A stretch of DNA of 21,518 nt from contig JACPQZ010000067.1 of assembly GCA_016190205.1 (NCBI GenBank), positions 1-21,518 on the forward strand, read 5' to 3'. Under the pieces are notes generated by a model that was given only the letters and a program-made list of their open reading frames with translations, was not told the origin of the DNA and searched no databases. Both the position numbers and the translations under genes were made by a program. Positions within the stretch are counted from its first letter, which is position 1, and the number at the start of each line of letters is the position of its first letter. Origin of the DNA: Candidatus Omnitrophota bacterium (GTDB lineage Bacteria > Omnitrophota > JACPQZ01). Positions 1 to 19,683 of the stretch are shown one piece after another.

Positions 1-263
1 GAAGCAAGTTAGAAATTCGAAATCAGAAATTCAAAACAACCGTTTTCGAGTTTTGAATTTCGGTCATTCGAATTTGCTTCGTGCTTCGGATTTTGGTCAT
101 TCGTATTTGTTTCGTGCTTCGAGTTTCGTATTTCGAATTTTATCGTTTCACTCTGGTATCTGGTCTCTGGAATCTTCTGGTATCTGGTTACTGGTTTCTG
201 GTTACTCAAGTCGTCAACTACGTTTCACGAATCACGAATCACGAATCACGAGTCACGAACACG
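1..263. repeat. Heptamer-repeat element R1 (5'-truncated) upstream of ftsA
   Basis: This AT-rich spacer is built from units with a 7-bp period. GAAATTC-type units lie at 12-32, a complementary TTCG-rich right arm at about 49-145, CTGGTNN units at 153-173 and 177-204, and five TCACGAA-type units at 225-259. The first 38 bases are roughly the reverse complement of about 49-84, so the inner part can fold as a hairpin. Complete elements elsewhere in the window have a CCAG arm to the left; here that arm would lie before base 1. The element stops about 18 bases before the ftsA start. The short ORFs in it translate to low-complexity text and are not genes. Confidence 0.85.
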
Positions 264-280
264 CTACTTAGACTAAGAAA

Positions 281-1513
281 ATGGCGCGCGACAAGCTCTT
301 AACCAGTCTGGACATCGGTTCGGAAAAGATCGCCCTCTACATCGGGGCGGTTTCCCAGGATCATTCCGTTCGAATCTTGGGTTACGGAGAGGCCCCCGCA
401 AAAGGCGTAGAAAAAGGACAGATCGTGGATCTCAACGAAGCGGGAGGAGCTATCCGGGAGGCCCTGATACGGGCGGAGGAGAGCGCGGGCTGCGAGGTTT
501 ACTCGGTCACCACCAACGTGGCTTCCGACCGTGTGGAAGGCTCCACCTGCTGCGGCCTTGTGATCCTGGCCCCCCGGGAGCGCGAGATTACCGCGCAGGA
601 TATCCGGAGGGCCGTTGAATCTGCCGGCCATCATTCCCTGTCTTTCCGGGAGCGTGTGGTTGCCAACATCGTGCAGGGCTATGTGGTGGACGAGCAGGAT
701 GGGATTCTCAATCCTTTGGGGATGGTGGGCACGCGGCTCGGGGCCACCTGCCATGTGGTAGCCGCGCCCTCCATACAAATGGAGAATATTCAGCGGAGCG
801 TTCGCTGGGCGGGCCTGGAGGCGGAGGGCCACGTGCCCGACGCCCTGGCCGCGGCGCACGCAGTTCTCACGGAGGAAGAGAAGACGCTCGGTGTTGTTCT
901 GGTCGAGGTCGGGGGGGCGTCCACGGACCTTATCATGATGGCCAGAGATTCGATTCTTTTTACGAGCAGGCTTATGGAGGGGAGCTCGCGGGTGCATGAG
1001 CGCCTGGCACGCGAATTCCGGACGTCGTTTGACGAGGCCCAAGCCCTCGCGCGGCGGGCCGGGTGCCTGCCCAGGGCGCGTGAGGACGGCGAGGAGACGA
1101 TCTATGTGCCCGGGGTGAGCGGCAGGCAGGGCGCCTCGTGGAAAGGGGCCCAGATTCGTGAAGTCGTGCGCAGTGAGACGGAGGCGCTTCTCAAGGCGGT
1201 ACGGGAACGGCTTCAAGCGTCGGGATTTCTCGATCGAGCCGTGTCCGGAGCCGTCGTGTGCGGGGGGTTTTTCCTCATGGCGGGAAGCGCCGAGACGGCT
1301 GAAAATGAGCTGGGGATCCCTGTCCGGGTGGGCCTGCCCCAGGGGATCGAGTCAGCAAACAGCCATCTGATGTCACCGCGGCATGCAGTAGGACTCGGGA
1401 TTTTGAGTTATACTAGTGGGGTGGACGGGAGGAACCTATGGCAGGGGACAGCACAAGGCCGGATAGTCCGGTGGTGGGACAGAACTCGGGAGTGGATCCA
1501 AGAAGCGTTTTAG
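281..1513 (+). CDS. ftsA: Cell division protein FtsA
   Basis: Actin-like ATPase that tethers FtsZ to the inner face of the cytoplasmic membrane and recruits later divisome proteins. The 410 residues match FtsA in length and order: an N-terminal phosphate-1 loop (LDIGSEKIAL, residues 10-19), an SHS2-type 1C domain with the ITAQDIRRAVESA segment, the NPLGMVGTRL segment, a phosphate-2 loop VEVGGASTDL (usually IDIGGGTTD), the adenosine-motif region VVCGGFFLMAG, and a C-terminal amphipathic helix (RIVRWWDRTREWIQEAF) that serves as membrane anchor. The ATG has no convincing Shine-Dalgarno; repeat R1 ends just upstream. Its last 76 bases overlap the next gene in another frame, and ftsZ does not follow. 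PilM is the nearest alternative but lacks this 1C domain and C-terminal anchor. Confidence 0.93.
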   Translation: MARDKLLTSLDIGSEKIALYIGAVSQDHSVRILGYGEAPAKGVEKGQIVDLNEAGGAIREALIRAEESAGCEVYSVTTNVASDRVEGSTCCGLVILAPREREITAQDIRRAVESAGHHSLSFRERVVANIVQGYVVDEQDGILNPLGMVGTRLGATCHVVAAPSIQMENIQRSVRWAGLEAEGHVPDALAAAHAVLTEEEKTLGVVLVEVGGASTDLIMMARDSILFTSRLMEGSSRVHERLAREFRTSFDEAQALARRAGCLPRAREDGEETIYVPGVSGRQGASWKGAQIREVVRSETEALLKAVRERLQASGFLDRAVSGAVVCGGFFLMAGSAETAENELGIPVRVGLPQGIESANSHLMSPRHAVGLGILSYTSGVDGRNLWQGTAQGRIVRWWDRTREWIQEAF

Positions 1514-2595
1514 ATTCGGCGCTTGCACAGCTCAAGGCACAGGCCGGATCTGACCTGCATATGAAGGTGGGCCAGACCCCTATGATCCGGACCAAGAGGC
1601 GGCTCGTGAAGCTTGCCCTGGAGCCGCCTACGGAAGAGATCATGGAGCAGCTTGCGGAATCGCTCTTGACGGAATATCAGCGTTTCCATTTTCAAAAGGA
1701 AAAGGAATTCGATTTGGCTTTTGAGCACAAGGAGTTCGGACGCTACCGCATCAACATCTTCAGACGCCAAGGCTTGATTGGAATGGTCGCCCGCGTCATC
1801 CACGACCAGATCCCGGGCTTTGAGGAACTGGCCCTGCCTCCCATCTTTGAAAAGCTGGCCCAAATGGAGAGGGGGATGGTACTCGTGACGGGGGCAAGTT
1901 CCCAGGGGAAGTCCACGACACTGGCCTCGATGGTGGATTTCATCAACCGGACCCGGGAGTGCCATATTGTGACCATTGAAGACCCCATCGAATATGTCCA
2001 CAGGGATAACCGGTCCATCATCAATCAGCGCGAGGTGGGGCTCGATACCCCGTCGTTCTACGATGCCTTAAAAGGCGTGGTCCGGCAGGATCCCGACGTC
2101 ATCCTGGTGGGCGAGATGAGGGATGCGGAAACCTTCCAGGCGGCAGTGCTCGCGGCCGAAACAGGGCACCTGGTCTTCAGCACGATGCATGCCCGCGACA
2201 TCAGCCAGGTGCTTGACCGCACCCTGGGATTTTTTCCCCAGAGCCACAGGGATCAGATCCGCCTGCAGCTCGCCTATAACCTGCAGGCCATCACTTGCCA
2301 GAGGCTTTTAAGGCGCAGCGGCGACGCGGGGCTCATCCCGGGATTTGAGATCCTGCTCTTCAATTCCACCGTGAGAAAGCTCATGGCCGATGACAAGATG
2401 CCCAAGATGGAGCAGGCCATGCGCAATGGAACCGAGGAGGGCATGCAGACCTTCAATCAGGCCCTGGCTAAACTCGTGCAGGAAAAAAAGGTGACCCTCG
2501 AAGAGGCCATCGAAAAATCAGCCAACCCTGAAGAGCTCAAGCTCCTTGTCAAAGGCATCATCCTCGACTCCGGGAGATCGATCCTGGGGCCGTAG
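1438..2595 (+). CDS. pilT: PilT/PilU-type type IV pilus retraction ATPase
   Basis: Hexameric secretion-type ATPase expected at the cytoplasmic base of a type IV pilus, driving filament disassembly. The 385 residues contain a divergent Walker A (GASSQGKS, 152-159, instead of GPTGSGKS), the Asp box TIEDPIEYVH (179-188), a Walker B-type segment DPDVILVGEMRD (218-229) and a His box around GHLVFSTMHARD (243-254). The tail GMQTFNQALAKLV followed by EEAIEKSANPEELKLLVKG resembles PilU/PilT C-termini. The ATG at 1438 is chosen because GGGAGG lies 7 bases upstream, although this creates a 76-base overlap with ftsA; an in-frame GTG at 1492 is the alternative. A pilus gene in the usual ftsZ position is odd. 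Whether it works as PilT or as PilU cannot be decided from this sequence. Confidence 0.88.
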   Translation: MAGDSTRPDSPVVGQNSGVDPRSVLDSALAQLKAQAGSDLHMKVGQTPMIRTKRRLVKLALEPPTEEIMEQLAESLLTEYQRFHFQKEKEFDLAFEHKEFGRYRINIFRRQGLIGMVARVIHDQIPGFEELALPPIFEKLAQMERGMVLVTGASSQGKSTTLASMVDFINRTRECHIVTIEDPIEYVHRDNRSIINQREVGLDTPSFYDALKGVVRQDPDVILVGEMRDAETFQAAVLAAETGHLVFSTMHARDISQVLDRTLGFFPQSHRDQIRLQLAYNLQAITCQRLLRRSGDAGLIPGFEILLFNSTVRKLMADDKMPKMEQAMRNGTEEGMQTFNQALAKLVQEKKVTLEEAIEKSANPEELKLLVKGIILDSGRSILGP

Positions 2596-2623
2596 CTTAG
2601 GGCCCGCAAGCGTATCTCGTGAA

Positions 2624-2652
2624 TTGACATATCCCTTATCAGTATGATAAAT
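2624..2652 (+). promoter_or_regulatory. Candidate sigma-70-type promoter before yggS
   Basis: A perfect -35 hexamer TTGACA (2624-2629) is followed after 17 bases by ATAAAT (2647-2652). GATAAA and TAAATT in adjacent registers are alternative -10 readings. Transcription would start near 2658-2660, only a few bases before the proposed TTG start of yggS. The gene would then be nearly leaderless, which agrees with the absence of a Shine-Dalgarno. Confidence 0.55.
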
Positions 2653-2699
2653 TACGTCTACTTTGAAATTAGCTGACCGATTAAATTACATAAGGGATA
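2630..2699. repeat. 10-bp inverted repeat straddling the yggS start
   Basis: TATCCCTTAT at 2630-2639 is the exact reverse complement of ATAAGGGATA at 2690-2699. The left copy fills the spacer between the proposed -35 and -10; the right copy lies in codons 10-13 of yggS. The left arm would not be transcribed from this promoter, so a protein-bound operator pair is more plausible than an RNA hairpin. Chance remains possible. Confidence 0.4.
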
Positions 2700-3376
2700 G
2701 CTTATATAAAGCAGCGGAGAAGAGCGGGCAGAATCCAGAAGCGGTCACCCTTGTCGGAGTTACCAAGTCTGTCCCGGTTGACCTGATTGCGGAGGCCGTC
2801 CGGTCGGGTCTTTCAGATATCGGGGAAAATCGGGTACAGGAAGCCCTTAAAAAGCGAGAAGAGCTCATCTCAATCCTTCCCCCGGAATATCCCGGGCCGC
2901 GTTGGCATCTCGTCGGCCACCTACAGCGAAATAAGACTAAGCACGCGGTCCGCCTGTTTGATCTCATTCATTCAGTAGATTCTTTCCCCCTCGCGGAAGA
3001 GATCGACCGCCGAGCCGAGGGTGCCGGGCGTGTCCTCGACATCCTGTTAGAGGTGAACGCGTCAGGGGAAGCCTCCAAGCAGGGGTGCGGACCCGGCGAG
3101 GTAGAGGAATTGGCGCAGGAGATCTCTCGTCTCACACACGTTGTGGTGAGAGGCCTCATGACGATGGCCCCTCTCGCAAAGGACCCGGAGTCGTCCCGGC
3201 CTGTTTTTTCGAAGGTCAAGACCTTGTATAACCGCTTGGCCGTACACAGGTTTCCGCGGGTGAAGATGGAAATCCTCTCCATGGGGATGAGTCAGGATTA
3301 CACCGTGGCGGTAGAAGAGGGGGCAAATCTCGTGAGGATAGGCCGGGCCCTGTTTGGAGAGCGCCATGTTCGGTGA
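2663..3376 (+). CDS. yggS: YggS/YlmE family PLP-binding protein
   Basis: Cytoplasmic fold-type III pyridoxal-phosphate carrier involved in PLP homeostasis; family members have no firmly known catalytic reaction. The 237 residues match the family. VGVTKSVP (31-38) carries the PLP lysine at 35, followed by the typical IGENRVQEAL, WHLVGHLQRNK, IHSVDS and LSMGMSQDY segments, with a VRIGRALFG ending. The start is taken as TTG 2663 because no ATG or GTG fits the conserved N-terminus and a stop lies four codons upstream of it. No Shine-Dalgarno is visible. The stop overlaps the proC start by 11 bases, implying translational coupling. yggS-proC-yggT is a recurring trio in many bacteria. Confidence 0.92.
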   Translation: MKLADRLNYIRDSLYKAAEKSGQNPEAVTLVGVTKSVPVDLIAEAVRSGLSDIGENRVQEALKKREELISILPPEYPGPRWHLVGHLQRNKTKHAVRLFDLIHSVDSFPLAEEIDRRAEGAGRVLDILLEVNASGEASKQGCGPGEVEELAQEISRLTHVVVRGLMTMAPLAKDPESSRPVFSKVKTLYNRLAVHRFPRVKMEILSMGMSQDYTVAVEEGANLVRIGRALFGERHVR

Positions 3377-4190
3377 CGACCGCATCGGTATCATCGGACT
3401 GGGGAATATGGGCTCCGCCATTATCAAGGGCCTGCTCTCGAGCGGGGTGGTCCTGCGCCAGAACATCCTGGGCTATGACCACCGCCCGGAGCCCCGCAAC
3501 TATTTGAACACCGAATTCGGCGTTCACGTCACGAACTCCTGCGACGAACTGGTAGGCGAGTCGGATTGCATTATCCTCGCGGTCAAGCCGAAGGATATTG
3601 ATGATGTCCTGATGCGCATCGGTTCGCAGGTGGGGGTGCACAAGACGGTGATCTCCATCGCGGCGGGGGTAACGGCGCGCCATATCGAGTATCTTTTGAA
3701 TACCGGCACCCCCGTGGTGCGTGTGATGCCTAATACGCCGGCCCTTGTGGGAGAGGGGATGAGCGCCCTCTTCCTCGGAAAATATGCGGATCTCAAACAG
3801 AAGATCCAAGCCGAGGCTATTTTCTCCAGTCTAGGCCAGGTGGTGACGGTGACTGATGAGCGCTTGATGGATGTGGTCACAGGGGTGAGCGGTTCGGGCC
3901 CCGCGTACTTTTTTTATCTTATCCAATGCCTGACCGAAGTGGCCGAGGAAGAAGGCATACCCGAGGAAGACGCGAGACGCCTTGCGTCACAAACGGCGCT
4001 GGGAGCGGCACGGATGGTCATCGCGACGGGGGAGGACCCTGCGGTATTGAGGGAGCGCGTCACTTCCCCCGGGGGCACTACGGAAGCGGCCTTCGAGGTC
4101 TTTCGCGAACTTAAACTGGGTGAAATTTACAAAAAGGGTGTTGAGAGGGCGATCCAGCGCTCCCGCGAACTTTCGCGTGGCGGACCCTAA
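3366..4190 (+). CDS. proC: Pyrroline-5-carboxylate reductase
   Basis: Catalyses the last step of proline synthesis: NAD(P)H-dependent reduction of 1-pyrroline-5-carboxylate to L-proline in the cytoplasm. The 274-residue protein has an N-terminal Rossmann motif (GIIGLGNMGSA, about 8-18), the VKP segment, the VRVMPNTPALVGEG motif, and the C-terminal dimerisation/substrate region with VSGSGPAYFF and RVTSPGGTTEA, all diagnostic of ProC. ATG 3366 is preferred over the upstream in-frame TTG at 3354 because GGAG lies seven bases before it and it places the Rossmann strand at the usual distance. It overlaps yggS by 11 bases and is followed by heptamer element R6. Confidence 0.95.
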   Translation: MFGDDRIGIIGLGNMGSAIIKGLLSSGVVLRQNILGYDHRPEPRNYLNTEFGVHVTNSCDELVGESDCIILAVKPKDIDDVLMRIGSQVGVHKTVISIAAGVTARHIEYLLNTGTPVVRVMPNTPALVGEGMSALFLGKYADLKQKIQAEAIFSSLGQVVTVTDERLMDVVTGVSGSGPAYFFYLIQCLTEVAEEEGIPEEDARRLASQTALGAARMVIATGEDPAVLRERVTSPGGTTEAAFEVFRELKLGEIYKKGVERAIQRSRELSRGGP

Positions 4191-4207
4191 CTTGTTAAGT
4201 AGCAGGA

Positions 4208-4267
4208 GCGGGATACGGGAAGCGGGAGACGGGAAGCGGTTCCCGGTTCCCGCTTAGCGATTCCCGA
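4208..4267. repeat. Heptamer-repeat hairpin R6 (CGGGAAG type)
   Basis: Four 7-base units of the GCGGGAT/ACGGGAA kind (4208-4235) are followed by the opposite-strand form, TTCCCGN units (4240-4267, one of them degenerate). The whole element is an inverted repeat that can fold as a GC-rich hairpin. It fills the proC-yggT gap. No T-tract follows, so it is not a classical terminator. The same unit in the other orientation appears inside carA at 14678-14705. Confidence 0.8.
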
Positions 4268-4275
4268 AACCGAAC

Positions 4276-4572
4276 ATGTTTATTTTGAGCAATTTTTTGG
4301 TGGCATTGGCAGAGGTGCTCAATATTGCGTTGGGCGTTCTCTACTGGGCCCTTATCATCAGGGCCCTGTTGTCTTGGGTGAGCCCTGACCCGTGGAACCC
4401 CATCGTCCAGCTTTTGAATAGAGTGACGGAACCCGTCTTGAGCCCCATCCGCAGGGCTGTTCCCTTCTTGGTGGCGGGTCTGGATTTTACGCCACTCGTC
4501 GCCATCCTCGCGATCTATTTCACACGGCTGTTTCTGGTAAAGTCCCTTTTGGACTTTGCGGCGCGTATTTAG
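4276..4572 (+). CDS. yggT: YggT/YlmG family membrane protein
   Basis: Small integral membrane protein of the YggT (YlmG) family, whose members have been linked to cell-envelope or division-related functions in bacteria and to chloroplast nucleoid distribution in plants; the molecular role is not settled. The 98 residues hold two hydrophobic segments (about 5-32 and 65-95) that flank the characteristic RALLSWVSPDPWNPIVQLLNRVTEPVLSPIRR region with its conserved Trp and Pro residues. The ATG lies 8 bases beyond repeat R6 with no clear Shine-Dalgarno. Its stop directly abuts the GTG of the next gene. Placement after yggS-proC is the family's usual context. Confidence 0.9.
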   Translation: MFILSNFLVALAEVLNIALGVLYWALIIRALLSWVSPDPWNPIVQLLNRVTEPVLSPIRRAVPFLVAGLDFTPLVAILAIYFTRLFLVKSLLDFAARI

Positions 4573-5409
4573 GTGAAAACAAAGCCCGGTTTGAATCAAA
4601 ATATCCGGAAGGCGGCTGAATTCATAATCGCGCGTGCGAGGTCGGAGCCCCGGATCGGCATTATTCTCGGCACGGGTCTCGGGGCGCTGGCGGAGCGGAT
4701 TGAAAAATCCACGGCGATTCCCTACCAGGACATCCCTCACTTCCCCGTATCCACGGTCGAAAGTCACCGGGGTCAGCTCGTGTTCGGGCTCCTGGCCGGA
4801 AGGCCCGTCGCGGCCATGGAGGGCCGCTTTCACTTTTATGAGGGATACAGCCTGGCGCAGGTGACCTTCCCGGTCCGGATCCTCAAGGCCTTGGGCGCGC
4901 GTGAGCTCATCGTTTCCAACGCCTGCGGGGCGCTTAACCTTTCATTCCGGAAGGGGGATCTCATGGTGATAGACGACCACATCAACCTCATGGGCGTAAA
5001 CCCATTGATCGGGCCCAACGATGAGTCCTTGGGCCCCCGTTTTCCAGATATGTCGGAGCCCTATGACCGTGAGCTCCAGAAGGTCTGTCTTAAGGCCGCG
5101 CTGGAAGAGGACATCTGCGTGCACCGCGGGGTGTACCTGGGCGTCACGGGGCCTAACCTCGAGACGCGGGCGGAATACCGCATGCTGCGCGGCCTCGGCG
5201 CGGATGTGGTCGGGATGAGCACCGTGCCCGAGGTGATTGTGGCGGTGCATGCGGGGCTTAGGGTGCTGGGTATAAGCTGTATCACCGACCTCTGCGACCC
5301 TGACCACCTTCGGCCCGTGGACATTGCTGAAATAATTCGCGTGGCCCAAGAAGTAGAGCCCAAGCTCACCCGGCTTATCGAACGCACCGTGTCTCAAATT
5401 TCGGTGTAA
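4573..5409 (+). CDS. punA: Purine nucleoside phosphorylase (PNP-I/MTAP superfamily)
   Basis: Phosphorolysis of purine (deoxy)nucleosides to base and pentose-1-phosphate for salvage. The 278 residues show the trimeric PNP pattern: GTGLG (33-37) phosphate loop, TVESHRGQL (61-69) with the phosphate-site His, MEGRFHFYEGY (82-92), VSNACGALN (114-122), and GVTGPNLETRAEYRML (190-205), whose Glu contacts the purine. The position normally held by the specificity Asn (SxxTN or SCISN in guanosine/inosine-type enzymes) is Asp239 here (GISCITDLC), so the base preference may be shifted toward 6-amino purines or may follow a distinct subfamily. GTG 4573 is the start, immediately after the yggT stop. The symbol punA is by family only; MTA phosphorylase is the alternative. 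Confidence 0.88.
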   Translation: MKTKPGLNQNIRKAAEFIIARARSEPRIGIILGTGLGALAERIEKSTAIPYQDIPHFPVSTVESHRGQLVFGLLAGRPVAAMEGRFHFYEGYSLAQVTFPVRILKALGARELIVSNACGALNLSFRKGDLMVIDDHINLMGVNPLIGPNDESLGPRFPDMSEPYDRELQKVCLKAALEEDICVHRGVYLGVTGPNLETRAEYRMLRGLGADVVGMSTVPEVIVAVHAGLRVLGISCITDLCDPDHLRPVDIAEIIRVAQEVEPKLTRLIERTVSQISV

Positions 5410-5415
5410 CTATTG

Positions 5416-5592
5416 AGTAACCAGATACCAGTTACCAGAAACCAGAAGATACCAGATACCAGATGATACCGACGATCGGACATCGAACCTCGAACTTCGG
5501 ACTTCGAAGGCCGATGTTCGAAGTACGAAGTACGGACCTGGTATCTGGTTTCTGGAATCTATCTGGTAACTGGTTACTGGTTTCTGGTATCT
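5416..5592. repeat. Heptamer-repeat inverted element R2
   Basis: The left arm carries CCAGNNA units at 5421-5448 and, after a 3-base slip, at 5452-5465. The right arm carries CTGGTNN-type units at 5538-5558 and, after a 4-base slip, at 5563-5590. The arms are near reverse complements. The core (about 5471-5535) holds another 7-bp family, GAACTTC/GGACTTC/GAAGTAC. As RNA this would form a long imperfect hairpin about 180 bases in size, ending 8 bases before the ileS ATG. No protein gene is supported here. Confidence 0.85.
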
Positions 5593-5600
5593 AAATTTAC

Positions 5601-8459: not shown

Positions 8460-8469
8460 ATAGAATATC

Positions 8470-8877
8470 ATGAATAACAAGCCTCTCTCGAAAACCGATT
8501 TGGAGTACTGGAAAGCGATCCTCGCGGAGGAGCGGCGCCGGGTGACCGAACAGCTCCGCCACGTGGAAGAGGACGTCCTGAAAAAGTCTCAAAGAGATGC
8601 GACGGGCGACCTTTCGGGATACAGTTTCCACATGGCCGACGTGGGGACCGATAATTTCGACCGCGAGGTGACCTTGGCGCACGCATCGAACGGCCAGGGC
8701 ATCATCTTTCAAATAGACGAAGCCTTAAAACGTGTGAATGAGGGGACCTTTGGCATGTGTACATCCTGCGGCAAGCCCATCAAAAAGGAACGCCTCAAGG
8801 CGGTCCCCTATACCACCCTGTGCGTTCCCTGTAAGTCCCAGGAGGAGTCCCGCCCCGTCCCGCCCAGCCAGACATGA
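8470..8877 (+). CDS. DksA/TraR-family C4 zinc-finger protein (YlyA-like)
   Basis: Small predicted RNA-polymerase-associated regulator. The 135 residues comprise an N-terminal helical region (about 8-45), a central stretch with the acidic/Asp-rich ADVGTDNFDRE segment (56-67) seen in TraR/DksA homologues, a second helix, and a C4 zinc finger with C97, C100, C118 and C121 (CTSCGKPIKKERLK then TLCVPC). It lies between ileS and lspA, where B. subtilis has ylyA of the same family, so a role in modulating transcription initiation at stable-RNA or stress promoters is plausible but not demonstrated here. Its stop overlaps the lspA start as ATGA, implying coupled translation. Full DksA is usually longer (about 150 residues), so no gene symbol is given. 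Confidence 0.9.
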   Translation: MNNKPLSKTDLEYWKAILAEERRRVTEQLRHVEEDVLKKSQRDATGDLSGYSFHMADVGTDNFDREVTLAHASNGQGIIFQIDEALKRVNEGTFGMCTSCGKPIKKERLKAVPYTTLCVPCKSQEESRPVPPSQT

Positions 8878-9470
8878 GGTTGTTTTTCGCAAGCCTCGTT
8901 GTAGTCATCTTAGACCAGCTTACCAAATTAGCCGTGGAACTATTCTTAAGGGAATCCGTCCCAGTCATTCCCAACATATTTTATTTGACGCGGGTGCACA
9001 ATTCAGGGGGAGCCTTCGGGCTATTCACGGGGTTTACCTGGATGTTTGTTGCCGTGGGGCTATTGACCCTGGCTTTCGGACTTTTGTTCCGCCGCTCGAT
9101 TCAAACGGCCCCCCGCCTGATCCGCTGGGCTGCGGTTCTGATCCTGGGAGGGGCCCTCGGAAATCTCATCGACCGCCTGCGCTTTGGGTACGTGATCGAC
9201 TTTCTGGACTTCCGCGTCTGGCCCGTGTTTAATCTGGCCGATAGCTCGATCACCGTTGGGACGTGTTTGATCGTGTGGAGTATCTTTGCTGAACGTGGAA
9301 AAAGAAACCAGATACCAGTAACCAGTAACCAGAAGATTACAGATACCAGAAACCAGAAGGTTAAAAATCGGCTTTTTATTATCTTTTCTCTGCCAATGGC
9401 TCTATCACTTCTATCTGGTTTCTGGTCTCTGGTCTCTGGTTACTTCTCCAATGCATCCCGTATTATTTGA
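8874..9470 (+). CDS. lspA: Signal peptidase II (prolipoprotein peptidase) with repeat-derived tail
   Basis: Aspartyl membrane peptidase that removes signal peptides from diacylglyceryl-modified prolipoproteins at the inner membrane. Four hydrophobic segments (about 1-20, 56-72, 85-100, 125-139) and the family motifs are present: RVHNSGGAFG (40-49), GNLIDRLRFGYVIDFLDF with catalytic Asp109, and FNLADSSI with catalytic Asp123. Normal LspA ends at about residue 145. Here the frame runs on for another 53 residues encoded by heptamer element R3 (starting QIPVTSNQKITDTRNQK), including one more hydrophobic stretch (about 167-190), and stops inside lgt. The start ATG overlaps the preceding stop. The following lgt acts one step earlier in the same pathway. 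Confidence 0.93.
   Translation: MRLFFASLVVVILDQLTKLAVELFLRESVPVIPNIFYLTRVHNSGGAFGLFTGFTWMFVAVGLLTLAFGLLFRRSIQTAPRLIRWAAVLILGGALGNLIDRLRFGYVIDFLDFRVWPVFNLADSSITVGTCLIVWSIFAERGKRNQIPVTSNQKITDTRNQKVKNRLFIIFSLPMALSLLSGFWSLVSGYFSNASRII
9302..9447. repeat. Heptamer-repeat inverted element R3 within the lspA 3' end
   Basis: The left arm has CCAGNNA units at 9308-9335 and 9346-9359; the right arm has CTGGTNN units at 9415-9442. The arms are reverse complementary across a loop of roughly 55 bases. Unlike R1, R2 and R4 there is no TTCG-rich core. The element is translated as the LspA C-terminal extension and ends 4 bases before the lgt ATG. Confidence 0.82.
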
Positions 9471-11110: not shown

Positions 11111-11131
11111 GTCCGGAAACTCTGTTATCCT
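11103..11131 (+). promoter_or_regulatory. Predicted promoter of the pyr operon
   Basis: TTGACT (11103-11108) and TATCCT (11126-11131) are separated by 17 bases. The -35 overlaps the end of the rluD-like gene. A start near 11138 would place the PyrR-binding hairpin and the terminator in the leader RNA, as expected for attenuation control. Confidence 0.6.
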
Positions 11132-11137
11132 AATGTA

Positions 11138-11240
11138 TAGCCCTTTAATTCGGTCCTGTGAGACCGGGAAGGAAGGCAAAATGAGTCGGATACTCCGCAT
11201 AAAAATCGTACCTACCTATTCGAGGTAGGTCTTTTTTTGC
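11138..11240 (+). promoter_or_regulatory. PyrR-binding leader and transcription attenuator
   Basis: CGGTC at 11151-11155 pairs with GACCG at 11162-11166 around the loop CTGTGA, followed by GGGAAGGAAGGC. This matches the known PyrR-binding RNA pattern (UCC-GNGAG-type loop with a purine-rich 3' flank). GCC at 11140-11142 can pair with GGC at 11175-11177 as a lower stem. AGGAAGG (11170-11176) is complementary to CCTACCT (11211-11217) except for one A-A mismatch, giving a possible antiterminator that competes with both the PyrR hairpin and the terminator. High UMP with PyrR would favour termination. Confidence 0.82.
11210..11238 (+). terminator. Intrinsic terminator of the pyr attenuator
   Basis: An exact 8-bp stem, ACCTACCT (11210-11217) with AGGTAGGT (11223-11230), around loop ATTCG is followed by a C and seven T residues (11232-11238). 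It lies between the PyrR-binding hairpin and pyrR, the standard attenuator position. Confidence 0.88.
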
Positions 11241-11270
11241 CCACCTTTCTTTTTCCTGCTTGCTTGGACC

Positions 11271-11305
11271 GCGTAGCACGAAGCACGATGAACGAAGCAC
11301 GAACG
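11271..11305. repeat. Heptamer-repeat array R7 (ACGAAGC type)
   Basis: Five contiguous 7-base units (GCGTAGC, ACGAAGC, ACGATGA, ACGAAGC, ACGAACG) sit between the terminator and the pyrR start. CGAAGCACG is the reverse complement of the CGTGCTTCG found in R1 and R4, linking this small array to the larger elements. No inverted partner arm is visible nearby. Confidence 0.72.
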
Positions 11306-11327
11306 TTGCTCGCTAGGACAAAGTAAG

Positions 11328-11870
11328 ATGCCTCGCATAAAATCTAAGATTATGGACTCGAGGGCCATAGACCAGGCCCTCACGCGGATCGCGCACGAGA
11401 TACTCGAGCGGAATAAAGACACTTCGAGCCTTGCCCTCGTGGGGCTTCGCACCCAGGGGGTGTACCTCGCCCAGCGCCTGGCGGCGAAGATCAAGGAGCT
11501 CAACGGGGCAGAACTTAAGGTAGGTATCATGGACATCACGCTTTACCGTGACGACGTGCGTGGGGGGATACTCGTGCCCCAGGTCAAAGAAACCCTCATC
11601 GATTTTGACTTGGACGGCAAAAAGGTGGTTCTGGTGGATGACGTCCTTTTTACGGGCCGGTCGATACGCTGTGCCCTGGATCAGCTCATCGATTTTGGAC
11701 GCCCCAAGGAGATCCAGCTCGCGGTCTTGATTGATAGAGGACACCGGGAACTTCCCATTCGGGCCGATTATGTGGGGAAAAACATCCCCACCGCCGCGGG
11801 GGAGCAGGTGGTCGTGCGCCTTAAAGAAGGCGGGGGACCGGATGAAGTGGTTATTGAGGAGGAGGACTAG
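11328..11870 (+). CDS. pyrR: PyrR bifunctional RNA-binding attenuation protein / uracil phosphoribosyltransferase
   Basis: Regulator that binds pyr leader RNA when UMP is high and causes termination; many members also convert uracil and PRPP to UMP. The 180 residues match PyrR length, with the type I phosphoribosyltransferase PRPP loop VVLVDDVLFTGRS (100-112), DITLYRDD (69-76), LVGLRTQGVYLA (38-49) and the LIDRGHRELPIRADYVGKN segment (about 134-152). The start ATG has AGGA about 11 bases upstream. The cognate RNA site lies in the leader just before it, so this is autoregulation of the whole cluster. pyrR as first gene followed directly by pyrB matches the Bacillus pyr operon without the pyrP permease. 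Confidence 0.95.
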   Translation: MPRIKSKIMDSRAIDQALTRIAHEILERNKDTSSLALVGLRTQGVYLAQRLAAKIKELNGAELKVGIMDITLYRDDVRGGILVPQVKETLIDFDLDGKKVVLVDDVLFTGRSIRCALDQLIDFGRPKEIQLAVLIDRGHRELPIRADYVGKNIPTAAGEQVVVRLKEGGGPDEVVIEEED

Positions 11871-11872
11871 AC

Positions 11873-12799
11873 ATGCAGTGGCGTCATAAAGACCTCCTGG
11901 GTCTGGAAGAGCTGACGGCAGAAGAGATTGACGGCATCCTGGAGCAGACACGGGCCTTCCGGGAGGTCTCGCAGCGCACGGTCAAGAAAGTTCCGGCGCT
12001 TCAGGGAAAAACCATAGTCAACCTTTTCTTGGAGCCCAGCACCCGGACGAGGGCATCCTTTGAGCTTGCGGCCAAACGGCTCTCCGCTGACATCGTAAAC
12101 TTTCAGGAAAGCTCTTCGAGCCTGGCAAAGGGAGAGACCCTCAAGGATATGGCCCGCAATATCGAGGCCCTGAAAGTGGACTGCATCGTCATGAGACACG
12201 CCTCAAGCGGGGCACCCCATCTATTGGCGCGATGCGTCAAGGCTTCTATTATCAATGCGGGGGACGGGGCCCATGAGCATCCCACCCAGGCCTTGCTCGA
12301 TCTATTTACCATACGTGACAAGATCGGAAAGATCGAGGGCCTGCGCGTCCTTTTTGTGGGAGACATCACGCACAGCCGGGTGGCCCGCTCCAATATCTGG
12401 GGGATGTCCAAGTTTGGAGCGAAGGTGACCGTGTGCGGCCCGCGGACTCTAATCCCGTATGATATCGGAAGCCTGGGGGTGAACGTCAGCCATGACCTCT
12501 CGTCCAGCATCCGCGAGTGCGACGTCCTGTATCTCTTGCGCATTCAGCATGAGCGGCAGAGGAGGCACCTCTTTCCGTCCAACCGGGAGTATGCGCGCTT
12601 TTTCGGCGTGAACGAGTCGCTTTTAAACGGGGCGCGAAAGAATCTTCTCGTACTTCACCCGGGCCCCATTAACCGGGGGGTGGAGCTATCGGGGGACGCG
12701 TCGGAGGGGCCGCAGTCCTTGATCCTCGAGCAGGTCACGAATGGCTTGGCCGTGCGCATGGCGGTCTTGTATCTCGTGTCCGGGAGCGGAGAGTCATGA
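11873..12799 (+). CDS. pyrB: Aspartate carbamoyltransferase catalytic chain
   Basis: Condenses carbamoyl phosphate and L-aspartate to N-carbamoyl-aspartate, the first committed pyrimidine step. The 308 residues contain the carbamoyl-phosphate loop EPSTRTR (54-60), the mobile loop with [12 protein letters not shown] (81-92), [13 protein letters not shown] (131-143), an RIQHER segment and HPGPINRG toward the C-terminus. A strong GGAGGAGG Shine-Dalgarno lies upstream inside the end of pyrR, whose stop is two bases before this ATG. The pyrC start overlaps its stop (ATGA). No pyrI regulatory-chain gene is adjacent, as is usual for PyrR-controlled operons. Confidence 0.96.
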
Positions 12800-13536
12800 G
12801 CCTTTTGATCCGGGGGGCGGAGCTCGTTGATCCCGAAAAGAAACTGACAGGCACCCTGGATGTTTTAATCGAAAACGGGGTCATCTCGCGCATTGAGAAA
12901 AAGATCACGAACGGGTCGGCGAAGACGCTCGACGCCCGGGGGCTTCACCTCATGCCGGGACTCGTGGACATACACGTGCATTTGCGCCAGCCCGGCCGCG
13001 AAGACTGCGAGACGATTGAGAGCGGATCCCGCGCCGCTCTAAGAGGGGGTTTTACGAGTCTCTGCGCGATGCCCAATACAGACCCTCCGTGCGACACCGA
13101 GACGGTCGTGGAATATGTCAAGCATGAAGCAGGCCGCGTGGCGGGGGTAAATATTTATCCTCTGGGCTGTATTTCGCGCGGCCGGAAGGGTGAGGAGCTC
13201 GCCGAGATCGGGGGCCTTAAGGCGGCCGGCGTCGTGGGTTTGACGGACGACGGCGCCCCTGTGGTGGATTCAGAGCTCATGCGCAGGGCCATGGAATACG
13301 CCTCCGGGTTTGGATTGTGCGTCATTTCACATGCGGAAGACACCTCTCTGTGCGCGGGCGGGGTGATGAATGAGGGGGAGGTCTCCATGAGGCTGGGTTT
13401 AAGGGGAAGCCCCAACGCGGCAGAAAGCGTCATGATCGCGCGCGACATTGCCCTGGCGGAGCTTACCGGATGCCGCCTGCACATCGCCCATGTGAGCACG
13501 CGCCAGGGCTGTGACCTCATAGCCGAAGCCAAGTAA
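12796..13536 (+). CDS. pyrC: N-terminal dihydroorotase fragment before the stop
   Basis: The open part upstream of the TAA encodes 246 residues: the first beta-sandwich strands and most of the metal-binding barrel (His60, His62, Asp151/152, His179, His232). A GGAG-type Shine-Dalgarno precedes the ATG, which overlaps the pyrB stop. Without the final barrel strands and Asp305 it is not expected to be active alone. Confidence 0.6.
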
Positions 13537-13623
13537 AGAGGCATTTCTGTTACGGGAGAAGCTGCGCCTCATCACTTTTCCCTGACCGATGCCCAGGTCT
13601 CCAACTACGACGCGCGCTTTAAG

Positions 13624-14082
13624 ATGAATCCCCCCTTAAGAAGCCAAAGGGATGTGGCCAGGGTTCAGGAGGCCGTGGTGCGAGGGGAGCTTGCGGCGAT
13701 CGCGACCGATCACGCACCCCACGCGGAACATGAGAAGGCCGTGGAGTTTGACCGGGCGCCCTTCGGCGTGATTGGCCTTGAGACGGCGCTCGGGGTGGCC
13801 ATCAAGATATTTGTCGAGTCGGGTAAAATGGAAATCGCGGATTTAATCCACAGGATGAGCTTAGGTCCCGCCCACGTGGTGGGGCTCAATAAAGGGCGTC
13901 TCGCAGTTGGGGCCGATGCCGATTTGACGCTCGTAGATCTTAAATCCGAGTGGGAGGTGCGCGAGCAAGACTTTTTATCCAAGTCCCGCAACTCTCCCTT
14001 TATCGGCTGGAAGCTCCCGGGCAGGGTGGTGCACACGCTCGTGGGCGGCCGCGCGCTCTATCAGGATGGCAAGGTGAAATGA
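13624..14082 (+). CDS. pyrC: C-terminal dihydroorotase fragment after the stop
   Basis: From the first in-frame ATG after the TAA this encodes 152 residues, beginning [10 protein letters not shown] and including ATDHAPH with the catalytic Asp and the [18 protein letters not shown] ending typical of dihydroorotases. No Shine-Dalgarno precedes the ATG, and the conserved EAAPHHFSLTD stretch before it would be lost, so independent translation is doubtful. Its stop overlaps the carA start. Confidence 0.45.
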
Positions 14083-15314
14083 AGGGGATATTGGCACTCG
14101 AAGACGGCTTGGTGTTTAAGGGAGAAGGGTTCGGCGCCCGGGGCGAGACGAGCGGCGAGGTGGTTTTCAACACCAGCATGGCGGGCTATCAAGAGATTTT
14201 GACGGACCCTTCTTACAAGGGTCAGATTGTCACCATGACTTACCCGTTGATCGGAAATTACGGGACGAATTACGAAGACAGTGAAAGCGCCCGGCCGCAG
14301 GTGGAAGGTTTTGTCGTGCGGGAGATTTCACGGAGGGCGAGCAACTGGCGCTCGCGCGGAGATCTCGAGGGGTATCTAGAAAAATACAACATCATCGGGA
14401 TTTCCGGTGTAGATACCCGTGCCATCACAAAACACTTGAGAACGAAGGGGGCCATGCGCGGGGTCATCTCAACGATAGATATGGACGAAAAGGCCCTGGT
14501 GGAGAAGGCCCAGCGCTCTCCCGGCTTGGTGGGGAGGGATCTCGTCCAGGAGGTCACGTGCCCGGCGCCCTACGACTGGCGCGGGGAGTCGTCGGATAGC
14601 AGATTCGGGGTTGAACACACGGGCAGGAAGGAAGAGAGAGAAAGGAAGAGAGATGACGAAGGCGGATTTAATGTTGCGCTTCCCGCTTCCCGCATCCCGC
14701 ATCCCGAACGTCGTTTCAAAGTCGTTGCAATAGATTGCGGCATCAAGTACAACATCCTGCGGCGCCTGACTCAATACGGTTGTGACGTCACGGTGGTCCC
14801 GGCCACGGAATCTGCGAAGGCCATTCTGGCCAGGTCTCCGGATGGGGTTTTCCTTTCCAATGGACCCGGCGATCCGGAAGGCGTGCAATATACGATCGAG
14901 ACGATCCGCCATCTCCTGGTGACGGTGCCTATCTTCGGCATTTGCCTGGGTCACCAGTTATTGGGCCTGGCCTTCGGCGGAAAGACCTTCAAGCTCAAAT
15001 TCGGGCACCGGGGGGCGAATCACCCTGTGATGGAACTGGCGACACAAAAGGTGGAGATCACCGCCCAAAATCACGGCTTCTGTGTAGATGTCGCCTCCAT
15101 CACCCGGCAGGGCATTGAGCCGACCCATATCAACTTAAATGACAAGACGCTGGAGGGGATGCGGCACCGGGAACTGCCCGTCTTCAGCGTGCAGTACCAC
15201 CCCGAGGCCTCTCCCGGGCCGCATGATTCGAGGTACCTGTTTGAGCGGTTTATTCAAATGATGCAACATGTGAAATCCAATAGCACAAAGAAACCAGAAA
15301 CCAGAAACCAGTAA
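14079..15314 (+). CDS. carA: Carbamoyl-phosphate synthase small subunit (glutaminase)
   Basis: Hydrolyses glutamine and channels ammonia to CarB. The start is ATG 14079 ([10 protein letters not shown]), overlapping the pyrC stop; a longer upstream frame from 13950 lies inside pyrC and lacks family character. The 411 residues hold the N-terminal CarA domain ([34 protein letters not shown]) and a class I glutamine amidotransferase domain with nucleophile Cys289 (GICLGHQ) and His374/Glu376 (YHPEA). Between the domains (about 170-210) is a charged linker longer than usual, [11 protein letters not shown] then [10 protein letters not shown], part of it encoded by heptamer repeat R5. The final eight or so residues (KKPETRNQ) and the stop come from repeat R4. 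Confidence 0.94.
14635..14710. repeat. Repeat R5 inserted in frame in carA
   Basis: GCTTCCC at 14678 and 14685 and GCATCCC at 14692 and 14699 form four contiguous 7-base units followed by GAACG. Upstream, a purine-rich stretch (about 14632-14655) repeats with a 14-base period, GGAAGAGAGAGAAA-like. The units match repeat R6 in opposite orientation. The reading frame is kept, adding a low-complexity linker between the two CarA domains. Confidence 0.72.
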
Positions 15315-15583
15315 CCAGATAGATACCAGATGCCAGAAACCAGAAAAAATACGAAATTCGAATATCGTCCGCCACAAAGCCAGGCGGATCCGCCTTGGGC
15401 AGAAAATTCGAAGCAAATTAGAAATTCGAAATTCGAAATCTCAAACCCCGGCTTAAAATATTCGAATTTCGGTTATTCGAATTTGCTTCGTGCTTCGTAT
15501 TTCGAGCTTCGGATTTTATCTTTTCTATCTGGTCTCTGGTTTCTGGTATCTTCTGGTTACTGGCAACTGGTATCTGGTTACTT
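15289..15583. repeat. Composite heptamer-repeat inverted element R4
   Basis: This is the largest element. CCAGNNA units lie at 15294-15321 and 15326-15346. GAAATTC-type units follow, then a perfect 14-bp palindrome AGGCGGATCCGCCT (15382-15395). Next are GAAATTC units facing TTCGAATTT and GCTTCGT units (about 15405-15512), then CTGGTNN units at 15529-15549 and 15553-15580. Outer and inner arms are both inverted, giving a nested hairpin almost 300 bases long that fills the carA-carB gap. Its left edge supplies the carA stop. No gene is supported here. Confidence 0.87.
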
Positions 15584-15606
15584 ACGTAATATGGCATTAA
15601 AGACAC

Positions 15607-18600
15607 ATGCCCAAGCGAACTGATATCCGCAAGATTTTGATCATCGGCTCCGGGCCGATCATCATCGGTCAGGCCTGCGAGTTTGATTATTCGGGCACCC
15701 AGGCCTGCAAGGCCCTTAGGGAGGAGGGCTACGAGGTGGTCCTCATCAACTCTAACCCCGCCACCATCATGACCGATCCCCAGGTCGCAGACCGCACGTA
15801 TGTGGAACCCATTACCCCCGAATTTGTCGCTCAAGTGATTGAGCGCGAAAGGCCTGATGCGCTTTTACCCACCCTGGGCGGCCAGACAGGTTTAAATACC
15901 GCGATCCGTGTTCAGGAAGACGGGGTTTTGGAGCGCTTCCATGTGGAAATGATCGGCGCCCGATACGAGGCGATCAAGAAGGCGGAGGAGCGCGAGCTCT
16001 TCCGCGCCGCCATGGCCAAGATTGGTCTAGACCTGCCCAAGAGCGGGCTCGCCCGCACGGTCGATGAGGCGCGCACCATAGCCCGGAGAATCGGCTATCC
16101 GGTCGTCGTGAGACCCAGCTATACCCTGGGGGGGACCGGCGGCGGGTTCTGCTTTGACGAGGCCCAGCTCGAGGAAGTCGTGCGGAGGGGGCTTGATTAT
16201 TCCATGCGGCATGAGTGCCTGATTGAAGAGTCCGTGCGCGGCTGGAAGGAGTATGAGCTCGAGGTGATGCGGGATTTGAAAGACAACGTGGTCATCATCT
16301 GCTCCATCGAGAACTTCGACCCCATGGGGGTGCACACGGGGGACAGCATTACCGTGGCGCCCGCCCAAACCCTGACGGACAAGGAATATCAAAGGATGCG
16401 CGACGCCTCGATCGCGTGCATGCGCGAGATCGGCGTGGAGACGGGGGGGTCCAACATCCAGTTCGCCCTTCACCCGGCGACGGGCCGCATGGTGATTATC
16501 GAGATGAATCCCAGGGTCTCCCGCAGTTCAGCCCTGGCATCCAAGGCCACGGGGTTTCCCATCGCGAAATTTGCGGCCAAGCTCGCGGTGGGGCTCACCC
16601 TGGACGAAATCCCCAACGACATCACGAAAGAGACCCCGGCCAGCTTTGAGCCCACCATCGATTACTGCGTGGTCAAGATCCCCCGTTTTGCGTTCGAAAA
16701 GTTTCCGGGCGTGGATGACGAGCTGGGTGTGCAGATGAAGTCGGTGGGCGAGACCATGGCCATCGGCCGGACCTTCAAAGAGGCCCTGCAGAAGCGCCTG
16801 CGCGGTTTGGAGATCTCGCGCGCAGGGCTCGGGGCCGACGGCTCGCCGCCGGTCGAAACCGATCCGGCCTTGATCCGCAAACGGCTCGCGCGCCCGGCGG
16901 AGGACCGCGTCTTCCTGATTCGCGATGCCCTCCGGGCGGGACTTCGCGTTGAAGAGGTGAGCGCCATTACATCGATTGACCCGTGGTTTGTGGAAAACAT
17001 GAAAGAGATCGTGGATGCGGAGCATGAGCTTGAGGAGGCGGGCCGCGCAGGCTGGATCAAGGGAGGCCGCGGGAAAGAGGGCGGTGCGCTCCTTAAAAAG
17101 GCCAAGGTCCTGGGTTTTAGCGACGCCCAGCTCGAGGAGCTGTTAAAAACGGACGAAGACTCCATCCGCAACTTACGCAAGCGGTACGGGATTGAGCCCG
17201 TGTACAAGCGCGTGGATACCTGCGCGGCCGAATTCGAGGCCTATACCCCTTATTATTACTCCACTTACGAATCAGAGGACGAGGTCATGCCCACCGCGCG
17301 CAAGAAAATCATGATCCTGGGGGGAGGGCCCAACCGCATCGGGCAGGGGATTGAGTTTGACTACTGCTGCTGCCAGGCCTCCTATGCCCTAAAGGAGATC
17401 GGATTCGAGACCATCATGGTCAATTCCAACCCGGAGACGGTCTCGACCGACTATGACACGAGCGACCGGCTGTATTTTGAGCCGGTCACGTATGAGGACG
17501 TGCTCAATATCGTAGAGAGGGAGAAACCCGACGGGGTCATCGTGCAGTTCGGGGGTCAGACCCCTTTGAACCTTGCGGTCCGGCTGGAGGCGGCCGGGGT
17601 GCCTATCATCGGAACGAGCCCCGACGCCATCGACCGCGCGGAGGACCGGAAGCGTTTTAACGAGCTCCTCAATAAGCTGGGGCTTTTGGCTCCGCGCAAC
17701 GGGACGGCCACGAGCTTGGCAGGCGCCCAGGAGGTGGCGGCCCGGATTGGGTATCCTGTGGTGGTGCGCCCTTCGTATGTCCTCGGGGGCCGGGCGATGG
17801 AAATCGTGTATGACAAAGACAGCCTCCGGACTTACATGCTCCATGCGGTGCGCGCCTCGCCCAAGCACCCTGTGCTCCTCGACCGTTTTCTGGAAAACGC
17901 CATTGAGGTGGATGTGGACCTCATCGCGGACGGGAGGGATTTTGTGGTGGGCGGCGTCATGGAGCATATTGAGGAGGCCGGCATTCATTCAGGCGACTCC
18001 GCCTGCGTGCTTCCGCCGCACACGCTTCCATTGAAAACCGTGGCCCGAATTGTGGATGAGACGAAGGCCCTGGCGCGTGAGATCGGGGTCGTGGGCCTCA
18101 TGAACGTGCAGTTCGCGGTCAAGGATAGTGATATATACGTCCTCGAAGTCAATCCCCGAGCCTCCCGCACGGTTCCTTTTGTGAGCAAGGCGGTCGGCGT
18201 ACCGCTCGCCCGGCTCGCCGCCCAGGTCATGGTGGGGAAGACTCTCAAAGAGCTTGGGTTTACCCGGGAGGTGACGCCCCGGCACACGAGCGTCAAAGAA
18301 TCGGTGCTTCCGTTCGCCCGGTTTCCGGGGGTGGATATCATCCTGGGTCCGGAGATGCGTTCGACGGGAGAGGTCATGGGGATCGACACGGGCTTTGGCG
18401 AGGCCTTTGCGAAGTCCCAGCTCGCCGCCGGGCAATCCCTGCCGCAGCGGGGCACGGTTTTTTTGAGTGTCATGGACCGCGACAAACCGCAAATCCCGGA
18501 GATCGCCAAGCGCCTTAAGTCTTTCGGGTTTACCCTCCTCGCCACGGCGGGAACGGCCCGGTTTCTGGCCGAGCGAGGAATAGAGGTCGAAAAAATCAAC

Positions 18601-18861
18601 AAGATTGCGGAAGGAAGTCCCCATGTGCTGGACCGCATCAAGCAGTCAGGCATCGACCTCATCATCAATACCCCTAATGGCAAGGGCCCCATGCTTGACG
18701 AGGGCCGTATCCGGTCCAGCGCCGTGGGCTACGGCATTCCCGTCATCACGACCCTGCCGGGGGCGCGCGCGGCCGTAAACGGCATTGAGTGTCTTCTTAA
18801 GGGAAAGCTGGGGGTCAGAAGTCTTCAGGCTTATCATGCCGATCTTGCAAAACTCCGTTAG
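15607..18861 (+). CDS. carB: Carbamoyl-phosphate synthase large subunit
   Basis: Makes carbamoyl phosphate from bicarbonate, ammonia and two ATP. The 1084 residues contain both homologous halves. The carboxyphosphate half begins [31 protein letters not shown] and carries GGTGGGF-type ATP-grasp loops. The second half begins [26 protein letters not shown] (about 566-591), with [19 protein letters not shown] and [17 protein letters not shown]. The C-terminal MGS-type allosteric domain (from about 950) includes [13 protein letters not shown] and NTPNGKG. Length and motif order are normal, with no gap. The ATG lies 24 bases after repeat R4 and has only a weak ribosome site. The last 26 bases overlap pyrK. 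Confidence 0.97.
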
Positions 18862-19645
18862 GATCGTCTCCAATCGCCGCCTGGCCCAGGATCACTACCG
18901 GCTGCGTTTGGAGCGGCCGCGCTCCTTTCCCGAAATTGAGGCGGGGCAGTTTGTACAGCTTCGGCTGGAGGAGGGCTGGGACCCTTTTCTCCCACGGCCC
19001 TTGTGCCTGTATGAACATTCCCGGCTCTGGATGGATGTCGTTTATCAAGTCGTGGGGCGCGGAACGGCCATCCTCTCCAAGAAAAAGGCGGGCGCTTCCG
19101 TCGGGGTGCTGGGGCCGCTGGGACTGGGTTTTCCCATCCTACTGGACGGCGACACGTATGTATTTGTGGCCGGGGGAGTGGGTATCGCGTCTTTGTACCT
19201 CGCGGCCAAGGAGCTCGTGCGCCAGGTAAAGGGGCGCGCCAGGTTCATTCTTCTTTTCGGCTTAAAGAGTGTTGGGATGCTTCATTGTCATCAGGATTTT
19301 CGCGAGCTGGGTTTTGAGCTAAGGATCGCGACCGATGACGGGTCGTATGGAAAAAAGGGTTATGTGACGGGTCTCGTCGAGCAGCTTTTTGAAAAGGAAC
19401 AATTGGGAAGGGTCTGGGTGTATGCGTGCGGGCCCAGGCCGATGTTTCTGGCCCTGACCGGTATACTCCCGCGCTTCGGCCAGGACGCGTATCTTTCTTT
19501 GGATGAGCACATGGCCTGCGGGGTGGGGGTGTGCTTAGGCTGCGCCGTTAAGACCGTGCGTGGAAATGGCGATCCCTACCGGCTGGTTTGCAAGGAAGGA
19601 CCTGTGTTTAAGATGAGCGAGATTGATTGGGAAAGTAAAAAGTAA
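18836..19645 (+). CDS. pyrK: Dihydroorotate dehydrogenase electron-transfer subunit PyrK
   Basis: FAD- and [2Fe-2S]-containing partner of class 1B PyrD, passing electrons to NAD+. From ATG 18836 the 269 residues have a flavin segment ending RPLCLY (55-60; usually RPxSxY), an NAD-binding [10 protein letters not shown] (111-120), YACGPRPMF (197-205), and the cluster cysteines C228, C233, C236 and C252 (CGVGVCLGC then LVC). An upstream in-frame start at 18785 lies inside carB and is not favoured. The C-terminal SKK and the TAA are supplied by repeat R8. Overlap with carB suggests coupling; pyrD follows, completing the heteromeric enzyme. Confidence 0.94.
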
Positions 19646-19683
19646 AAAGTCAAAAGGAAAAATTACAATTCAAAATTCAAAAG
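19635..19683. repeat. A-rich heptamer-repeat array R8 at the pyrK-pyrD junction
   Basis: Units of seven bases run GTAAAAA (19635, 19642), GTCAAAA (19649), GGAAAAA (19656), a six-base TTACAA step, then TTCAAAA (19669, 19676). The array gives pyrK its stop and ends about 9 bases before the pyrD GTG. Composition is far more AT-rich than the flanking genes. Confidence 0.75.

Follow-up and report, generated by a model that had tools for sequence, protein, structure and literature searches.

Heptamer arrays of an Omnitrophota genome are very probably, in the main, the inverted arms of hairpin elements that encode S23 proteins

Contig JACPQZ010000067.1 of a Candidatus Omnitrophota bacterium (assembly GCA_016190205.1) carries eight spacer repeats, E1 to E8, built on different units that all recur every seven bases. 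Why should repeats that differ in sequence share one period? The window studied here is the whole stretch of 21,518 nucleotides, which is contig C60 of the genome (G000) from base 1. We consider it very probable that heptamer arrays are for the most part the inverted arms at the ends of small hairpin mobile elements encoding the S23 protein, or 23S rRNA intervening-sequence protein (IVP; PF05635, TIGR02436), together with gene-less miniatures of such elements. The period is then common to all the arrays because they are the arms of one S23/IVP superfamily whose heptamers have diverged. As far as sequence comparison can show, arms flank S23 genes in many phyla, gene lineages tend to have their own heptamer, array-S23-array units insert whole, and internal deletion gives gene-less copies. 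The window holds gene-less or single-arm copies of S23 elements.

A preliminary description of the window proposed the seven-base period for the eight elements, and the data bear it out. Lag-7 identity is 0.53-0.85 at all eight, compared to 0.25-0.43 in dinucleotide shuffles (z 4.6-12.8), and Tandem Repeats Finder calls period 7 at each of them. For six elements the lag-7 value is never reached by the best of lags 2-23 in 500 shuffles; it is reached by 6 of 500 for E5 and by 2 of 500 for E6. The same excess is confirmed outside the window, in a sample of 41 stretches covering 551 kb, one third of G000 (1.65 Mb, 76 contigs), where we find 118 lag-7 regions versus 5-7 at lags 5, 6, 8, 9 and 10 (5 being masked N runs); with these runs set aside, about 113 regions stand versus 0-2. 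The harmonic lags 14, 21 and 28 are raised, and so are lags 17, 24 and 25. The pattern CTGGN3CTGGN3CTGG occurs 251 times in G000 and its reversal 30 times. Lag 7 also dominates in samples of 56 relatives from the phylum (69 regions versus 2-12 at other lags), with a very patchy distribution. Placed with a rough gene caller in sequence of 89% coding density, the 105 array clusters of the G000 sample are intergenic in 58 cases, inside predicted open reading frames (ORFs) in 39, and partial in 8. The same GACCCGA array stands at the end of L031 and at the start of L041, on two G000 contigs; the assembly thus breaks at heptamer repeats, and repeat number is probably underestimated.

The commonest class of array, CCAG/CTGG, is one dispersed inverted-repeat element with a fixed asymmetric anatomy. 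Its plan, seen in E1, E3, E4 and E7, begins with four units at step 7, followed after a step of 10 or 11 by three more, then by a core (9-206 bp in gene-less copies) and an inverted arm. The exact arm signature occurs 68 times in the genome, its reversed control never. All 24 close arm pairs are inverted: 15 combine a 10-arm with an 11-arm in either orientation, 9 combine two 10-arms, and none combines two 11-arms. The three-base spacers in the arms are position-specific, and of 17 cores, 16 are homologous to sequence at another G000 locus. The fixed arm plan, the inverted pairs and the homologous cores mean that a parent element was copied, contrary to the preliminary description, which had preferred a generating process to the copying of one parent. 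Its eight unrelated repeats are thus not all unrelated, as E1, E3, E4 and E7 are copies of one element; what stands is a genome-wide family of families with a common 7-bp period. We also considered that arms co-evolve for perfect pairing, and rejected it: own partners pair worse than random partners, which we read as a consequence of the arms differing by type (10 or 11 step).

Looking for larger CCAG cores located a gene-bearing copy. The locus L294 (G000:C24:40217-40672) is a full CCAG element with an S23 frame (PF05635, E 2e-24; TIGR02436 four helix bundle, E 1e-21), which also has a weak match to Avd, the accessory protein of diversity-generating retroelements (DGRs). It is distantly matched as well by five solved chains each of 2gsc (Xanthomonas campestris XCC0516) and 2rld. 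On the same contig, L054:18960-19210 is nearly identical over the first ~140 bp and has lost most of the reading frame. Judged from the alignment, it is an internal-deletion copy of L294, that is, a non-coding copy with its parent's ends, as in a miniature inverted-repeat transposable element (MITE). A MITE parent encodes a transposase; the L294 product has PF05635 and no known transposase domain. G000 has five PF05635 genes, and four lie between inverted heptamer arrays, each of a different family (CCAG/CTGG; CGTAC/CGCAGTA; CGTGCTT/ACGAAGC; GTGTGGTGAGTGATG). In these full copies the PF05635 ORF occupies the loop of the element and the terminal inverted repeats form the stem, as in the S23-bearing intervening sequences (IVSs) of rRNA. 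Heptamer arms are hairpin-capable, with RNA fold z of -5 to -14. Across the sample, 55% of the 118 distinct arrays match the arms of G000's own S23 loci, compared to 7% of column-permuted controls, and foreign S23 arms are matched by 45% of the arrays and 19% of controls.

The association holds across the phylum. Among 73 PF05635 loci, 50 have a lag-7 array no more than 200 bp upstream, 55 have one that close downstream, and 40 have both. Two-sided arrays at lags 5, 6, 8, 9 and 10 number 0, 0, 4, 1 and 0 for the same loci, and 1.0% of 588 control ORFs (at least 250 aa, same genomes) have two-sided lag-7 arrays; the control ORFs are longer than S23 genes, which the lag controls on the same flanks address. 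Upstream and downstream flanks are similar in inverted orientation at 55 of the 73 loci (2.0% of controls), and in direct orientation at 7. Arm similarity tracks protein similarity between genomes (Spearman 0.21 over 1954 inter-genome pairs, 0/2000 permutations), also across families. As examples, four genomes share TCAGCTA arms and have S23 proteins whose similarity is mostly 0.69-0.77, and GCGTACAG arms are present both in G000 and in the relative G023. Arrays appear in 21 of 35 samples from phylum genomes with PF05635 and in 2 of 21 from those without it (p 2e-4), a comparison slightly favoured by samples that may themselves contain an S23 locus. S23 loci in genomes without any sampled array have an arm in 22 of 24 cases.

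Outside the phylum, PF05635 is found in 23 of 25 named genomes with CTGG arrays and in none of 14 standard control genomes, a rate biased by choosing the set on its arrays. In 37 loci from other phyla and plasmids, arms are two-sided in 23 and present on at least one side in 30. The eight plasmid loci were unselected for arrays, and six of them have two-sided arms (Nostoc, Calothrix, Pseudanabaena, Aulosira). The most direct evidence comes from three reciprocal filled and empty sites on Nostoc plasmids, which identify the insert as array-S23-array. The empty form of site 1, in four plasmids, is TTCTAG[GA]TTATGC or a close variant. Filled copies in pC052_D, pNsp_a and pNPM1 read AATCAGGAGTCAG...S23...CTGACTTCTGGATTCTA or a close variant, and two of the three have TTCTA at both junctions. 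Site 2 is occupied by a GGGAAAA-armed S23 element in pNsp_c and is uninterrupted in pC052_D and pC052_B. At the third site, an AGTAGGG-armed element separates nrd genes of Nostoc edaphicum that are adjacent in Calothrix NIES-4105. A fourth site has a full copy in Trichormus variabilis and a truncated copy in pC052_E. The cyanobacterial short tandemly repeated repetitive (STRR) sequences, named early on as the closest parallel to the window, proved an apt one, as Nostoc and Calothrix heptamers flank S23 genes too.

In the window, five elements clearly match S23 arms in score comparisons with column-permuted controls, and E8 appears to do so weakly. E1 (1-263) is a composite element of which the start of the contig leaves only the right half (lag-7 z 9.1). 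It has an inner TTCG-type arm (57-140), a CTGG arm with a 10-bp step (152-206; spacing 7,7,10,7,7,7) and an outer TCACGAA array (221-258). Its CTGG part matches the arms of the S23 locus L333 (score 26, 0/40 controls). E3 (5416-5592) is a full gene-less CCAG element, with a 10-step arm (5416-5466), a core (5470-5534) with CG-N5 units that is homologous to the cores of L060, L068 and L045, and an 11-step arm (5538-5592). Its hairpin has -89 kcal/mol (z -10.4), and its CCAG arm matches that of L333 (score 28, 0/40 controls). E4 (9302-9447), another gene-less CCAG element, serves as the C-terminal tail of LspA, and its arm too matches that of L333 (score 27, 0/40 controls). E5 (11271-11305) is one ACGAAGC (CGTGCTT) array upstream of pyrR that matches the arms of L331, an S23 locus also in G000 (score 24, 0/40 controls). 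E7 (15289-15583) is a gene-less CCAG element at the carA-carB junction, with an 11-step arm (15289-15346), a core (15347-15525) that contains a TTCG-type element and is shared with L037, L038, L042 and L054, and a 10-step arm (15528-15583). Its hairpin reaches z -14.0; its S23 arm match of score 28 is reached by 7% of controls, and its match to L333 scores 26. Most of 15 relatives have carB beginning 0-20 bp past the carA stop, whereas ~290 bp of E7 lie between them in the window and E7 supplies the carA stop codon. Two relatives (L214, L225) have other inserts at this junction, which therefore tolerates repeated insertion. Both E3 and E7 have a second unit family nested inside the core. E8 (19632-19683), made of GTAAAAA and AAATTCA units where pyrD starts (lag-7 z 5.0), matches in its first half the S23 arm of an Acidobacteria metagenome-assembled genome (L403; score 22, 0/40 controls), a weak match given many tests. 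E2 (4207-4267) is a palindromic hairpin of CGGGAAG/CGGTTCC units with nine CpG in one 7-bp register (fold z -5.2), and by analogy may belong to the S23 superfamily. E6 (14677-14706) consists of four CGCTTCC/CGCATCC units in the inter-domain linker of CarA; the linker expansion holding it is not present in 15 relatives. 

Several observations weigh against the S23 interpretation. No S23 arm match beyond controls was obtained for E2 or E6, for the TCACGAA array of E1 or for the inner cores of E3 and E7, and we have so far found no S23 partner for the G000 unit families CGGTNNT, CGAGACC, GTCGCTG and CGGGAAT. One of the five G000 PF05635 genes has no arms, and two array-bearing genomes of the phylum have no PF05635. 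We looked for target-site duplication of CCAG elements and found no signal. To our knowledge, S23 proteins have no known catalytic activity.

One alternative is replication slippage, in which a step of 7 nt imposed by the polymerase makes each array independently, as argued for long simple sequence repeats by Mrazek and colleagues, and which the preliminary description had also put forward. In most bacterial genomes, no class of long repeat is more abundant than the heptanucleotides, and the polymerase has been proposed to contact 7 nt (PMC4679880). Some arrays have units that drift along their length. Most of the phylum relatives searched lack canonical MutS (PF00488), as do G000 and every phylum genome with at least 10 CTGG hits (Fisher p 0.04, confounded by phylogeny). 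MutS status, however, does not predict lag-7 density (p 0.18), and we rejected loss of mismatch repair as the cause. Slippage predicts a decaying unit number, yet the CGTGNNT, CGGTNNT, CGTACNG and CGGGAAG families of G000 are mostly [CGN5]4CG: the commonest length of maximal CG chains at step 7 is five CG (52 chains), 27 more have six, and chains of three are not in excess. Chains of at least five CG number 1-8 at other steps, except for 18 at step 14, the first harmonic. A unit number set at four is not the product of slippage, and neither the asymmetric 4-step-3 arm plan, nor close pairs that are always inverted, nor homologous cores are expected from it. The arrays also go with one gene family, S23, an association that largely refutes slippage as the main process; we consider it very unlikely. 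Another generator suggested at the outset, a dedicated reverse transcriptase, fares no better, as PF00078 is not found in G000, which is 93% complete. A CpG every 7 bp is not a universal rule either: it is very strong in G000 and not seen in other phyla, and is thus a local property of these lineages.

The hairpins could instead be elements like the repetitive extragenic palindromic (REP) sequences, moved by another enzyme such as a Y1 transposase (REP-associated tyrosine transposase, RAYT), with the S23 genes as passengers. G000 does have four Y1_Tnp genes, and the insertion of insertion sequences into palindromic repeats is established for other repeats. Y1_Tnp occurs, however, in 48 of 58 phylum genomes regardless of arrays, the four G000 copies are without close inverted arms, and with no association found between the two we rejected RAYT as the mover. 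Passengers would not be expected to co-vary with the heptamer between genomes, as the S23 protein does, or to arrive together with the arrays at an empty Nostoc site, and we regard this explanation as unlikely. The arrays might also be kept at gene junctions by selection because they have a regulatory or structural role (protein-binding iterons, G-quadruplexes, mRNA-stabilising hairpins). This would agree with the strong hairpins and with about half of the clusters being intergenic despite the 89% coding sample. It does not agree with the 37% of clusters within predicted ORFs, with a carA-carB element that is not in relatives, or with the absence of any orientation bias beyond background, and we give it very little probability.

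If the arrays are S23 arms, as we favour, the S23 protein, whose solved relatives form homopentameric rings, may bind the heptamer-phased arm or stem of its own element, in the form of DNA or RNA; by analogy, it is conceivable that a ring reads repeated 7-bp steps. The protein could then aid the spread of the element and of its miniatures in trans. The stem in the transcript would probably be cut by RNase III, as in rRNA intervening sequences. We extend this only tentatively, at slightly less than an even chance, to heptamer repeats across bacteria (STRR, Xanthomonas GGGAATC, TAACTGA and others), which might all be footprints of one hairpin-element superfamily in which a ring of S23/Avd-like protein would recognise an arm that diverges but keeps its 7-bp phase, and would drive the spread with no transposase or reverse transcriptase of its own. 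As the element encodes no recognised enzyme of either kind, such a superfamily would have to move in some unusual manner. For decades, heptanucleotide arrays have been described in bacteria with no explanation other than slippage or G-quadruplexes, and the widespread four-helix-bundle proteins of the S23/IVP family have no known function. A connection between them supplies a parent for the repeats and, for the protein, a target that can be tested, namely the heptamer arm of its own element. We found no publication joining heptamer arrays to S23 elements in a search that left subscription journals and preprints outside.

Among the closest known systems is the IVS of 23S rRNA (Coxiella burnetii, Leptospira), a ~430-bp hairpin whose ends are inverted repeats and whose loop holds a PF05635 ORF, which is sporadic, selfish, and suspected to be mobile; in Coxiella, two to three tandem GACAGAT heptamers upstream of the S23p frame were reported without wider meaning, and the solved Xanthomonas relative of S23 is a toroid, a homopentamer of four-helix bundles (PMC4990558). 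The elements here lie instead in intergenic DNA and protein linkers, have long heptamer arrays as arms, and occur in several lineages side by side, mostly as gene-less miniatures. Those of the window are between or inside protein genes rather than in a 23S rRNA helix; they work like an IVS without being an rRNA IVS. With the STRR and long heptanucleotide repeats of cyanobacteria, Xanthomonas and Beggiatoaceae they share imperfect intergenic arrays of a tandem 7-bp unit. The Xanthomonas GGGANTN arrays mostly have four units and form 70-75 inverted pairs, and were reported as generally unassociated with mobile elements (PMC4692102); CGGGAAT, a rotation of the Xanthomonas unit GGGAATC, also occurs in G000. 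The Beggiatoaceae heptamer is TAACTGA (PMC4679880). The papers cited here treat those repeats as simple sequence repeats without a parent, whereas here a parent gene is identified for many arrays, and the decaying unit number of a slippage origin is replaced by a peak at four units and a fixed 4-10/11-3 plan. As for MITEs and the REP/REPIN-RAYT systems (REPINs being paired REP sequences), palindromic miniatures are dispersed from a gene-bearing parent on which they apparently depend, and their ends co-vary; the parent gene here encodes, in place of a transposase, a four-helix bundle for which no catalytic activity is known. S23 belongs to the same four-helix-bundle fold family as the DGR protein Avd (PMC10053308), while the reverse transcriptase of a DGR (PF00078) is the domain that G000 lacks in the search given above.

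The arrays have further features of arrangement. Families are nested, in several places concentrically, with CGTG outermost, then CCAG, then TTCG-type. Several long arrays, not all neighbours, keep their register through family changes, with significance not established. A CGCAA end motif occurs in 22 of 77 arrays compared to 2 expected, in several unit families and on one side only (L034:8569, L037:5437, L058:7549, L056:3573 and others). A GCTCGC/GCGAGC border motif, recurrent by eye, was dropped (8 versus 4 expected, not significant). On cyanobacterial plasmids, the S23 genes of L377 and L380 lie within CRISPR-Cas operons (cas6/cas4; cas10/cmr3). Among the pyrimidine genes of the window, pyrC (dihydroorotase, 12796-14082) has an in-frame TAA at 13534-13536 past which the frame resumes, either a recent stop or a sequence error, and the leader of pyrR (11328), at 11120-11245, resembles a pyrimidine-operon attenuator with a terminator hairpin.

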